This document shows positions 21,358-25,066 of a DNA stretch of 64,000 nucleotides, piece by piece. The notes beneath the pieces were generated by a model, which did not search any database, was not told the DNA's origin, and saw nothing but the letters and a program-made list of their open reading frames with translations. The translations under genes and the position numbers were made by a program. How positions within the stretch are numbered: position 1 is the first letter of the stretch; the number at the start of each line of letters is the position of its first letter. Origin of the DNA: Cellulosilyticum lentocellum DSM 5427 (GTDB lineage: Bacteria > Bacillota > Clostridia > Lachnospirales > Cellulosilyticaceae); NCBI RefSeq assembly GCF_000178835.2, contig NC_015275.1, forward strand, positions 1,943,001 to 2,007,000. Reading direction: 5' to 3'.

Positions 21358-21804
21358 ATGAATCCTATTGAACAGCTTTTGCAGAACAAAATTTTGTGGG
21401 TGGCTATTGTAAGTTGGTTTATTGCACAGCTATTTAAGGTTATTATTACTTTATTACAAGAACATCGTTTAGACTGGAGTAAGCTCTGGGCTTCAGGCGG
21501 CATGCCTAGTTCTCATAGTGCTTTTGTGATGAGTTTGGCCATAAGTGCAGGACAAGTATGGGGATATGATAGCACGTACTTCGCTATTGCAGCTGTGGTT
21601 AGCTTTGTGGTTATGTATGATGCAGCAAACGTACGTTTAGAAGCCGGGAAACAAGCAGCTGTTATTAATCAAATTATCGAAGTACTTGAAAATCCAGATT
21701 TAAATCCAGAAGAACGTTTAAAAGAAATATTAGGACATACGCCACTTCAAGTAGTAGCAGGTGGTGTATTAGGTTTTGTTATAGCTATTTTATCGTTTAT
21801 GTAA
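21358..21804 (+). CDS. yuiD: Divergent PAP2 family membrane protein (YuiD type)
   Basis: A 148-residue integral membrane protein with about four helices. The motif SGGMPSSHSAFVMSL (about 45-59) and DAANVRLEAGKQA (about 88-100) belong to the divergent PAP2 family (DUF212), related to lipid phosphate phosphatases; a role in dephosphorylating an isoprenoid or lipid phosphate is plausible beside ispA and dxs but not shown. It starts 10 bases after ispA behind GGGTGG. The OLE RNA promoter lies just behind its stop. Confidence 0.87.
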   Translation: MNPIEQLLQNKILWVAIVSWFIAQLFKVIITLLQEHRLDWSKLWASGGMPSSHSAFVMSLAISAGQVWGYDSTYFAIAAVVSFVVMYDAANVRLEAGKQAAVINQIIEVLENPDLNPEERLKEILGHTPLQVVAGGVLGFVIAILSFM

Positions 21805-21835: not shown

Positions 21836-21864
21836 TTGAAAAATAAAGTATACGTTGTTATAAT
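21836..21864 (+). promoter_or_regulatory. Sigma-A promoter of the OLE RNA
   Basis: TTGAAA (21836-21841) and TATAAT (21859-21864), exactly 17 bases apart, 32 bases after the yuiD-like stop. The predicted start (about 21871) falls at the AAGCGACT that pairs with the RNA's 3' end. Confidence 0.8.
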
Positions 21865-21870
21865 GAATGA

Positions 21871-22506
21871 AAGCGACTGATGACGCGCTTTTCAAAAAAC
21901 GAGATGCGGTATTCTAGTCAATCTGTTGTGTTTTGAAGACGGGCCTAAAAATCCGTTTAAGGGCATATCGATGAAGTTCCTGGTGTTGGCTTGTAACGCC
22001 CCGTTGTGGGCTGATACTGGGGGTTAAGGTTTGTGGGCGATCCATAAGGGCATATGGGCGTTGACCCGCTTACCGTGGAGACCTATGCTTGTGCTTATCC
22101 CTATGGGGATAATGTATGACTTAGGATGAAACCTGCCATGCGGTGTTAGCTGTGGGCAGAGTAGCCTTCCTTGAGTGAAGGAAGGGGGACATCCATTTAC
22201 TAGGGGGTTCTTTGGCCGAAGAACTTTCCTAGATTGTGGATAGAAACCTGATTCGCAAAAGAGGATAGGAACATTATAGATTGTTTGAGGAAAACTCCTA
22301 GACCGTTTGAAAAAGGTAGTGTTTGGATTACAGTGTGGTTTTTAAGGCGATCTGGCGCTAAGCCCTAGGCTTAGAAGTCTTTTTAAAGGGAAACCGCTCA
22401 TTTGGCGACAAAAGAGTAGGGACTTGGGAAAACCTGCTAGACTATATGCCACAAAATTTACAAACACTATCATCTCGATTTTTGAGAAGTGGGTGATGAG
22501 TCGACC
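21871..22506 (+). ncRNA. ole: OLE RNA (ornate, large, extremophilic RNA)
   Basis: A stretch of about 636 bases with no usable reading frame and far more G than its coding neighbours. It sits where OLE RNA is known to lie, between isoprenoid genes ispA and dxs and immediately before the gene for its membrane partner OapA. The ends are complementary (CGACT at 21874-21878 with AGTCG at 22499-22503). Clear local hairpins include TTATCCC/GGGGATAA (22095-22112), CCTTCCTT/AAGGAAGG (22165-22185), AAGCC/GGCTT near 22360 and TCATC...GATGA at the 3' end. OLE RNAs are about 600 nt, bind OapA at the membrane, and in Bacillus halodurans support growth under cold, alcohol and Mg stress. Identification is from context, size and structure, not an alignment. 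Confidence 0.9.
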
Positions 22507-22523
22507 ATGAAGGAGCAGTTTTA

Positions 22524-23099
22524 ATGCCTAAGAAGATTAAATTTAAAATGGTAAAAGTACGTCAGCAAAGTAAAAAGACTTTAGCACTTATCATTGGTAT
22601 GACTTTTACTATTGCTATGTTGTTTAGTTATATATTTGAGGTTTTATTAGCAGACGTACCTCTTTTAATAGCATTTTTGATGCTCATAGGGATTATTATT
22701 ATTGGCATTTTTTTTGATGGAATTGGTAATGCTGTAGTAGCAGTAGATGAAACGACTTTTCATTCTATGGCAGCTTCTAAAGTAAAGGGAGCCAAAGAAA
22801 GTATTACTTTAATTCGTAATGCACCTATGGTAGCCAATCTATTCAATGATGTCATTGGTGATATAGCTGGTATTATTTCCGGCAGTACAGCAACAGCTAT
22901 TGTACTAGCAATTGAAAAAGGTTTTGGTATTAAATCCATTTTGTTATCTATTGCCATGAGTGGCTTTGTAGCAGCACTTACTGTTGGGGGAAAAGCATTA
23001 GGTAAAGGATTTGCTATTGCAAGAGCTAGATATATTGTGTATTATACTGGCGTTGTAATGTACTATACAAAACAGTTATTTAAAAGAACAAAGAAGTAA
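22524..23099 (+). CDS. oapA: OLE-associated membrane protein OapA
   Basis: A 191-residue basic membrane protein with four predicted helices (about 18-38, 44-66, 113-132, 136-158). N-terminus (MPKKIKFKMVKVRQQSKK) and C-terminus (KQLFKRTKK) are rich in Lys/Arg, suiting RNA contact. Asp109-Val-Ile-Gly-Asp113 is a DxxxD motif of the type reported as important in OapA. The start at 22524 has AAGGAGCAG 10-15 bases upstream, 18 bases beyond the RNA. In characterised species OapA binds OLE RNA and brings it to the cell membrane; a short terminator-like hairpin follows the gene. Confidence 0.9.
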   Translation: MPKKIKFKMVKVRQQSKKTLALIIGMTFTIAMLFSYIFEVLLADVPLLIAFLMLIGIIIIGIFFDGIGNAVVAVDETTFHSMAASKVKGAKESITLIRNAPMVANLFNDVIGDIAGIISGSTATAIVLAIEKGFGIKSILLSIAMSGFVAALTVGGKALGKGFAIARARYIVYYTGVVMYYTKQLFKRTKK

Positions 23100-23101
23100 A
23101 T

Positions 23102-23128
23102 GGCAATCTGCTTGGATTGTCTTTTTTA
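23102..23128 (+). terminator. Terminator after oapA
   Basis: GGCAATC (23102-23108) pairs with GATTGTC (23115-23121, one G-U), six-base loop, followed by TTTTTTATT. Short stem, so readthrough into dxs is likely. Confidence 0.6.
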
Positions 23129-23203: not shown

Positions 23204-25066
23204 ATGTTAGACACATTAAAGACTATTCATAGTCCAGAAGATGTAAAAAAATTAAATACAGATGAATTAGGAGAATTAGCTCAAGATATACGAAGCTTTT
23301 TAATTCAATCACTTTCTCAAACAGGAGGACATTTAGCCTCTAATTTAGGAGTGGTAGAACTTACTATTGCACTTCACTATGTATTTGAATCTCCTAAAGA
23401 TAAGTTGATCTGGGATGTAGGACATCAAGCTTATGTACATAAGCTTTTAACAGGAAGAAGAAAAGGTTTTAGGACTTTACGTCAATTAGATGGTATGAGT
23501 GGCTTTCCAAAACGTGTTGAAAGTCCACATGACGTATTTGAAACAGGACATAGTTCAACTTCTATTTCAGCAGCGTTAGGTATGGCCAAAGCTAGGGATT
23601 TAAAAGGTGAGGATTATAAAGTTGTTGCTGTTATTGGAGATGGTGCTTTAACAGGGGGGATGGCTTTTGAAGCACTTAATAATGCAGGTAGAGGAAATAC
23701 AAATTTAATTGTCGTTTTAAATGATAATGAAATGTCCATTTCTAAAAATGTGGGAGGAATTGGTAAGTATCTTAATAAATTACGTTCAAGTCAAGACTAT
23801 TTAAAGGCAAAAGAAGATGTAGAAGATGTTCTTCACAAGGTACCTTTAGTAGGTGAGCATATGGTAAGTACTATTAAGCGTACTAAAGAAAGTGTGAAGA
23901 GCTTTGTCATGCAAAATACACTATTTGAGCAATTAGGTTTTACTTATATTGGTCCAGTTGATGGGCAAAAGTTACCTGAACTTATAGATTTATTTGAAAA
24001 TGCAAAAGCAATGAAAGGGCCATTACTGATTCATGTGAAGACAAAAAAAGGAAAAGGTTATTTGGCTGCTGAACGTAAACCTAGCTACTATCATGGGGTA
24101 GGTCCGTTTTGTATTGCTACCGGTGAAGGTGCTAGCAAAACAGGAGACTATACATTTTCAGAAGCTTTTGGTGAGGCTATGGTGGATTTAGCACATCAAG
24201 AAGAAAAGCTAGTGGGTATCACAGCTGCTATGCCAGAGGGAACAGGCTTATTACCTTTTGCAAAGGTTCACCCAAAGCGTTTCTTTGACGTGGGTATTGC
24301 GGAGCAACATGCTGTCACCTTTGCGGCAGGGTTAGCAACAGAAGGTTACAAGCCAGTAGTAGCTGTGTACTCCTCATTTTTACAGCGCGCTTATGACCAA
24401 ATTCTTCATGATGTTTGTCTTCAAAATTTACCGGTTATTTTTGCTGTAGATAGAGCTGGATTAGTAGGTGAAGATGGACCTACGCATCATGGTCTTTATG
24501 ATATGGCATTTTTAAGCAGTATGCCAAATATGACTATTTTGGCGCCTAAGGCACCAGGAGAAATGGCAGCAGCTATGAAATACGCTTTAAATGTTAAAGG
24601 GCCAGTTGCTATTCGTTATCCAAGAGGTGGCAATTGCATAGAACAAGTGTATTTTAATGATTATACGTCAACTGGTTTTAAAACTTTAAAAGCAGGCAAT
24701 AATATGGCTATCTTAGCTGTAGGGCGTATGGTAGAAGTCGCTTTACAAGTAAAAGAGCTACTAAGTATGCAGGGAGTAGAGCTGGCAGTTATAGAAGCAC
24801 CTTGTATTCAGCCACTTCCAAAAGAAGAAATAGTTGCTTTAGCTGAAGACTATGACTATCTCTTTACACTTGAAGATGGTATAATACAAGGTGGTTTTGG
24901 TGAAAAAGTATTTGCAACACTTGCTTTATCAAGTAAAGCTGTGAAGGGACACTGCTTTGCACATGAAAGTGGTTTAGTACCTCATGGTAAGGTTAGTGCT
25001 TTGTTTGAAAGAGAAAAGTTAGATGCCAAAGGAATTAGTGAGCGTATTTTAAATGATTTAAAATGA
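23204..25066 (+). CDS. dxs: 1-Deoxy-D-xylulose-5-phosphate synthase
   Basis: A 620-residue thiamine diphosphate enzyme that condenses pyruvate with glyceraldehyde 3-phosphate, the entry step of the MEP pathway. N-terminal motifs are ASNLGVVELTIALH, WDVGHQAYVHK and the ThDP-binding GDGALTGGMAFEALNNAG; the central pyrimidine domain has FDVGIAEQHAVTFAAGLA with the catalytic Glu, and DRAGLVGEDGPTHHG follows. Full length. It feeds ispA upstream; RBS AAAGAGGC. Confidence 0.96.
   Translation: MLDTLKTIHSPEDVKKLNTDELGELAQDIRSFLIQSLSQTGGHLASNLGVVELTIALHYVFESPKDKLIWDVGHQAYVHKLLTGRRKGFRTLRQLDGMSGFPKRVESPHDVFETGHSSTSISAALGMAKARDLKGEDYKVVAVIGDGALTGGMAFEALNNAGRGNTNLIVVLNDNEMSISKNVGGIGKYLNKLRSSQDYLKAKEDVEDVLHKVPLVGEHMVSTIKRTKESVKSFVMQNTLFEQLGFTYIGPVDGQKLPELIDLFENAKAMKGPLLIHVKTKKGKGYLAAERKPSYYHGVGPFCIATGEGASKTGDYTFSEAFGEAMVDLAHQEEKLVGITAAMPEGTGLLPFAKVHPKRFFDVGIAEQHAVTFAAGLATEGYKPVVAVYSSFLQRAYDQILHDVCLQNLPVIFAVDRAGLVGEDGPTHHGLYDMAFLSSMPNMTILAPKAPGEMAAAMKYALNVKGPVAIRYPRGGNCIEQVYFNDYTSTGFKTLKAGNNMAILAVGRMVEVALQVKELLSMQGVELAVIEAPCIQPLPKEEIVALAEDYDYLFTLEDGIIQGGFGEKVFATLALSSKAVKGHCFAHESGLVPHGKVSALFEREKLDAKGISERILNDLK

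Follow-up and report, generated by a model that had tools for sequence, protein, structure and literature searches.

An OLE RNA gene with an unusually long terminal stem directly upstream of oapA in Cellulosilyticum lentocellum DSM 5427

The ole locus and its neighbourhood

The window analyzed here is a stretch of 64,000 nucleotides from the genome of C. lentocellum, and all positions below without a locus label are counted from its first base. When the entire 64-kb window is scanned with Rfam models, the sole match above threshold is OLE RNA (RF01071) at 21885-22492 on the plus strand, with 449.5 bits against a cut-off of 50, an E-value of 9.9e-129 and coverage of model positions 1-616 of 616; this score is in line with those of the other nine Cellulosilyticaceae OLE genes (420-467 bits). 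The initial annotation had placed an OLE RNA at 21871-22506, which the full-length match bears out, and its bounds agree with the ends of the terminal stem described below better than the Rfam bounds do. It had also described a region of strong local hairpins lacking a reading frame. No ORF of at least 70 aa lies between the yuiD-like upstream neighbor (DUF212 domain match, 21358-21804, plus strand) and the membrane-protein gene downstream, and no ORF that touches 21871-22506 exceeds 43 aa on the minus strand or 33 aa on the plus strand. The fold energy of 21871-22506 is -235.6 kcal/mol versus a shuffle mean of -187.4 (sd 6.6, n = 20; z = -7.4), and 0 of 20 shuffles fold as low. There is no second copy of ole in the 4,714,237-base genome. 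The gene has the full-length form with P7/P8 and the OapB site, not variant 1 or 2, and aligns to the model without a large gap. Compared with the Rfam OLE class and its type case in Halalkalibacterium halodurans, it shares the full-length sequence and structure, the oapA/dxs order, an own promoter and the conserved loop motifs, whereas the model hairpin with the loop GGUGAC (near model position 485) is replaced by a shorter hairpin. This replacement, at 22355-22380, varies in length and sequence across Cellulosilyticaceae.

The nusB-xseAB-ispA...dxs-recN surroundings named in the initial annotation also stand: Pfam or NCBIfam models identify nusB, xseA, xseB, ispA, DUF212/yuiD, dxs, tlyA and NAD kinase, as well as argR, a RecN/SMC-type gene, spoIVB and spo0A. 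All features that follow are on the plus strand. The ole gene, taken from the Rfam match and the stem ends to include the extended terminal stem P1, occupies 21871-22506, and is preceded by a consensus match to a sigma-A type promoter, TTGAAA-17-TATAAT, at 21836-21864 (11 of 12, with TG before the -10), from which a start near 21871 is expected. Directly downstream, as the proposed location and OapA association had implied, lies oapA (22524-23099) with its Shine-Dalgarno sequence AAGGAG at 22511-22516; a hairpin scan finds a terminator-like hairpin followed by a T-run 3' of oapA (23102-23121), and dxs is the next neighbor (23204-25066).

Motifs of the class can be followed along the RNA. A conserved 5' segment, GGTATTCTAGTCA, is recognized at 21908-21920 by the Rfam alignment and by motif. 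The region at 21941-21954, assigned by motif, has an A-rich loop matching the P4 loop, which is reported as part of the OLE dimer contact (PMC12265935). The J4a/5 motif ATCGATGAAG at 21967-21976, whose register was set from the OLE83-191 primer, would form one side of the OapC kink turn, in which J4a/5 is described as involved (PMC9723947). Loops with GCCC at 21996-22002 and GGGC at 22046-22053 were assigned by motif to P5.1 and P6.1, putative counterparts of the P5.1 GCCC / P6.1 GGGC kissing loops between OLE partners (PMC12265935). By motif, the P9 loop at 22212-22218 bears the palindrome GGCC and is a putative symmetric kissing loop, the role reported for it in PMC12286853, and the P13 loop GGCGAC at 22401-22412, again a motif assignment, is the putative OapB-binding area, which the same paper as for the dimer contact locates at P13 (PMC12265935).

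For a wider survey, 150 OLE loci were assembled from 110 of the 114 class matches (including C. lentocellum), the 9 other family members and 31 of the 33 order matches outside the family; the set omits G116, G182, G237 and G124 (cut at contig end) of the class and two partial order matches. By a crude pattern count, the J4a/5 motif is exact in 133 of the 150 loci, GCCC of P5.1 occurs together with GGC of P6.1 in 137, and GGYGAC close to the OLE 3' end in 145. The P9 palindrome was found in only 65 of the 150 by a strict pattern; GGCC at P9 is kept in all 10 Cellulosilyticaceae rows.

The terminal stem P1 and the transcription unit

The Rfam OLE model leaves both RNA ends unpaired. The complementary ends noticed in the initial annotation form in C. 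lentocellum a stem P1 between 21874-21906 and 22471-22503 (both plus strand), with 29 standard pairs in 33 positions, 22 inside and 11 outside the Rfam bounds; 7 bases separate the end of the 3' arm from the ribosome-binding site of oapA, and the helix closes the unconstrained minimum-energy fold of 21871-22506. All 10 Cellulosilyticaceae OLE genes, from 3 genera, have a P1 of 29-36 pairs, about three times the typical length, whereas the median is 11 pairs (5-95%: 6-24) among the 103 remaining class loci whose anchor was usable and 13 pairs (9-34) in 31 order loci outside the family (6 of the 150 loci were dropped from this survey for want of an anchor). OLE itself is a known large bacterial non-coding RNA that acts at the cell membrane, and the long P1 is a new detail relative to the open-access literature searched, which is no proof of novelty.

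The pairing of P1 is evident from changes on both sides of the stem. Over the 10 family sequences (alignment A2), 9 pairs have both sides changed versus 3.8 in shuffles, of which 0 of 500 reach 9, and slid registers give only 0-2 such pairs. In A2, 88.3% of the cells pair, compared with 85.7% for shuffles and 37-54% for slid registers, and the occurrence of further pair types is unexceptional (173 of 500 shuffles reach the same measure). When the 3' arm was exchanged with that of a non-family locus, median lengths were 2-7 pairs versus the own 29-36, and 1 of 400 swaps was as long, while exchange within the family kept the stem (medians of 25-30 pairs).

That the ends pair outside the Rfam bounds throughout the class is not supported. 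Flanks alone give an own mean of -9.9 versus -9.2 kcal/mol in swaps, and the own pairing is the best of 31 in just 8 of 119 loci, four of these in the family (L019, L020, L021 and L023); with the inner arms included it is the best of 31 in 39 of 119. Outside the family, 37 of 134 loci pair better with their own arm than in any of 12 swaps. Inside P1, each of the 10 OLE genes of the family has the G.G mismatch found at 21882/22495, and UGAUGA-like sequence flanks it on both arms. UGAUGA on both arms is what we take to be box C-like, and had suggested a second OapC site. A second OapC kink turn in the extended P1 was rejected, as the covarying register gives just a 1x1 G.G mismatch, and so was a sheared G-A register, which would leave a one-base bulge.

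The occurrence of long stems in 10 of 10 genes from 3 genera and the excess of two-sided changes speak against neutral drift, under which the promoter and the 3' boundary would have moved at random and the added pairs would serve no function. Drift is nevertheless a real possibility, if one that we rather doubt, because arms from other family members pair nearly as well, the 40-nt flanks of C. lentocellum outside the Rfam bounds, taken alone, are matched by 4 of 30 swaps, and long stems occur in some other lineages. Among the 103 other class loci, 5 have a P1 of at least 25 pairs; L026 and L130 are AT-rich, and L071, L076 and L109 look clean, so a long P1 is not unique to Cellulosilyticaceae.

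The promoter bears on where this stem begins. An exact TTGAAA-17-TATAAT is present in 8 of 10 family loci, the two others having weak promoters, and the promoter lies 9-10 bases ahead of the first P1 pair in 9 of 10 (the hexamers of L009 are weak and L008 has no match). Promoter-like sites in 2 kb number 7 versus 6.2 in shuffles, and the other six score just 9 of 12. The best promoter score has a mean of 9.8 across 118 loci, versus 6.5 in mononucleotide shuffles, and in 54 of them it exceeds all 20 shuffles. A score of at least 8.5 within 80 nt is reached by 81 of the 113 loci from class and family; in these, the spacing between the -10 and the conserved anchor grows with P1 length (Spearman 0.52; 0.40 in the 73 loci without the family), and the gap from the -10 to the stem has a median of 10 (10-90%: 0-27) and an sd of 12.6 versus 17.1 in shuffles (lowest of 1000: 13.6). 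These results suggest that the promoter tends to shift along with the stem. The ole gene of H. halodurans is reported to be embedded in an operon and yet to have its own promoter as well (PMC9723947), so that an own promoter of ole is not new. A terminator-like hairpin 3' of oapA is present in 7 of 10 family loci versus 7 of 116 others, in a scan window that was chosen after viewing the C. lentocellum locus and may miss others; 3 of the 10 family loci gave no match. By consensus matches, transcription in C. lentocellum likely starts near 21871, at the outer end of P1. RNase III-type processing had been considered at both ends; at the 5' end the idea was dropped, since the start set by the promoter already coincides with the stem, while at the 3' end such processing may take place.

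Partner proteins and distribution among relatives

An OapA frame lies within 900 bases downstream in 147 of the 150 OLE loci, the others being L081, L087 and L136 (L087 ends 337 bases after OLE). In C. lentocellum it is an open frame of 191 aa, 73-82% identical to its relatives, with DVIGD at residues 109-113, and this DxxxD motif is invariant in the 13 rows (10 distinct) of alignment A1. Where four membrane helices would be expected of an OapA, the hydropathy profile shows five membrane-like stretches that overlap, of which two stand out clearly in the N-terminal half and two or three fall around residues 110-154. The protein has no Pfam or NCBIfam match at E 0.001, and the CNNM model PF01595 reaches 22.1 bits, below its cut-off of 28.4. 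A structure predicted from 92 sequences has a pLDDT of 93.4 and was used in place of a poor model from 13 close relatives (pLDDT 46.5). Its five best Foldseek matches are CNNM/CorC Mg2+-transporter chains (probability 0.99-1.00, E 2.6e-3 to 0.43), none below E 0.001, and a search of PDB sequences with the profile of alignment A3 gave nothing at E 0.1. A CNNM-like fold of OapA has been reported (PMC11332333). By the DxxxD motif and the CNNM-like predicted fold, the downstream gene is oapA; in length, membrane character, motif, predicted fold and position directly downstream of ole we found no clear difference from known OapA. Compared with the MpfA/CorC family (CNNM + CBS + CorC_HlyC), the OapA model is nearest in fold to the CNNM domains, but OapA has no CBS or CorC_HlyC match. 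A search for OapA in named genomes yields 6 loci, 4 labeled Cellulosilyticum and 2 "uncultured Clostridia bacterium".

C. lentocellum also encodes two full MpfA-type CNNM-CBS-CorC proteins (L004 and L005), where the literature describes none or one as typical. The idea that MpfA replaces OLE in the family finds no support, as CNNM-domain proteins average 1.5 in 10 genomes with OLE and 1.5 in 14 without (CNNM-domain matches above cut-off; the CBS and CorC domains were checked for the two C. lentocellum proteins only), and the published OLE-MpfA anticorrelation is not seen among these 24 family genomes.

The genes for OapB and OapC lie elsewhere in the genome. OapB (L012:3251-3526, minus strand), with neighbors that we take to be map and infA, matches PDB 7k9b, OLE-associated protein B (E 1.9e-8), and OapC (YbxF; L002:1507-1788, minus strand), adjoining what is presumably rpsL, matches YbxF structures (E 2.8e-16). 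Of the 24 family genomes, 18 gave an OapB match; it was not found in G001, G004, G006, G015, G016 and G021, of which G001, G004 and G015 bear OLE (73-84% complete). Identity to C. lentocellum OapB is 78-93% in six relatives with OLE and 43-55% in ten genomes without, and Map identity over the same comparison falls from 79-88% to 63-76%; G005, of the same genus and with OLE not found, has an OapB of 95% identity. On a fixed tree, with G005 grouped with the OLE-bearing genomes, the rate of OapB (L012 and relatives L061-L070) relative to its neighboring ribosomal-operon genes is 3.0 times higher on branches without OLE, versus 0.40-1.95 for five control genes. OapB thus appears to evolve about three times faster where OLE is absent, a shift that may reflect a single event, because all taxa without OLE among the 18 are on one side of the tree. 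The novelty of this observation is again judged against the open-access literature searched, and is not proven by it.

OLE is present in 5 of 7 genomes of the genus, 10 of 24 of Cellulosilyticaceae, 43 of 392 sampled genomes of the order (two as partial matches) and 114 of 291 of the class, and absent from all 14 control genomes. Given these counts in order and class, the copy in C. lentocellum is no surprise, and with 2,822 Bacillota matches reported (PMC11332333), OLE in an anaerobic clostridium is ordinary. The contrast with extremophile hosts drawn in the initial annotation is thus unremarkable. An open-access literature search found no paper on OLE RNA in Cellulosilyticum, although the copy may still be counted in surveys.

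OapA matches are found in 11 of 24 family genomes, the ten with OLE and G006, where only residues 3-39 match. G006, a draft of the same genus (86% complete), shows yuiD and two out-of-frame oapA fragments but no OLE upstream of dxs (L155 1233-1500). In G016, a 75% complete draft, L156 3348-3627 (minus strand) still has the promoter together with a portion of the 5' arm of P1 and a 72-nt piece of OLE, with no OapA there. This genome has three CNNM-domain proteins at its 75% completeness. Thirteen dxs loci of the family lack intact OLE; in five of them (L155, L156, L163, L164 and L168) an Rfam search at E 0.01 gave nothing, and the evidence for the remnant in G016 is therefore a blastn match (72 nt, 93%) together with inspection of the sequence. 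These sequences suggest a joint loss of ole and oapA, of which two relatives still carry remnants; as both are drafts, assembly error may explain the remnants. Rare defective OLE genes without OapA have been mentioned earlier (PMC11332333). Elsewhere in the family, yuiD lies directly before dxs in G020, G021 and G022, neither ispA nor yuiD occurs within 1,500 bases upstream of dxs in G007, G008 and G010-G014, dxs is cut at a contig edge in G005, and G009 has no full dxs. Carriage of OLE on phages was rejected, as there is no OLE RNA match in 50,697 phage records and no OapA relative in 163 candidate stretches of viral contigs (0 of 163). One of 72,556 plasmid records bears OLE: a 504-kb Pusillibacter faecalis replicon, typed as a conjugative plasmid, has a full OLE locus (L212 3980-4644, 399.8 bits), accompanied by dxs, tlyA and a gene with a CNNM domain.

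Proposed working of the locus

We propose, with high confidence in the explanation as a whole, that ole of C. lentocellum is a genuine OLE RNA gene in intact form, which together with oapA makes up a two-gene unit with its own promoter inside the isoprenoid cluster, and that its long-stem RNA would work in a particle with OapA, OapB and OapC. Intact anatomy and conservation suggest that ole is functional in C. lentocellum. RNA polymerase would start near 21871 from the sigma-A promoter and read ole and oapA, probably stopping after oapA. The nascent RNA would fold into the OLE architecture, with the unusually long terminal helix covering both ends, and a nuclease may separate OLE from the oapA message just past P1. 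OLE would then dimerize through its conserved loops, with OapC at the kink turn, OapB at P13 and OapA in the membrane, and by analogy with the H. halodurans literature the particle may tune divalent-metal handling and stress tolerance. The full-length Rfam match, the single copy, the OapA frame downstream of nearly all OLE loci, the three encoded partners, the loop and protein-site motifs, the promoter, the long P1, the terminator and the joint loss of ole and oapA count in favor of this explanation. Counting against it are the number of promoter-like sites, hardly above that in shuffles, the weak promoters in 2 of 10 family loci, the two full MpfA-type transporters of the genome, the missing terminator match in 3 of 10, the lack of an OLE-CNNM anticorrelation, the OapA structural matches all above E 0.001 and the empty PDB profile search.

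Because the region lies directly before oapA, with its 3' stem so close to the ribosome-binding site, it could also be read as a long structured leader (attenuator or riboswitch) regulating oapA or dxs rather than a stable RNA. This is very improbable, since OLE in H. halodurans is described as an abundant RNA of about 630 nt (PMC9723947) and as acting with OapA (PMC12265935), and the long P1 leaves the ribosome-binding site uncovered. That the region is a decayed, non-functional OLE remnant kept by chance, as the decay of ole/oapA in the near relatives G006 and G016 might suggest, is hardly credible given the full-length match in line with its nine relatives, the compensatory changes in P1 and the well-conserved open frame of OapA.

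For the family around Cellulosilyticum, the intact ole-oapA unit may be an insulated one. Its promoter and 3' boundary would extend P1 into a stalk of about 33 bp that defines and protects both RNA ends and marks the site where OLE is cut from oapA, while OapB would be held slow by OLE and released upon its loss. We infer this function of P1 only tentatively, and the parts taken together have somewhat less than an even chance of being right. If the published transmembrane model is right, the stalk would project from the outer face of the membrane and could tag the topology of the RNA.

C. lentocellum thus offers an intact clostridial example of OLE in which the three established partners OapA, OapB and OapC are encoded, and relatives from its own genus and family that seem to have lost both genes, ole and oapA, are possible natural knockouts. 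Its P1 is long enough to ask where the RNA ends sit relative to the membrane, and how OLE leaves its message.
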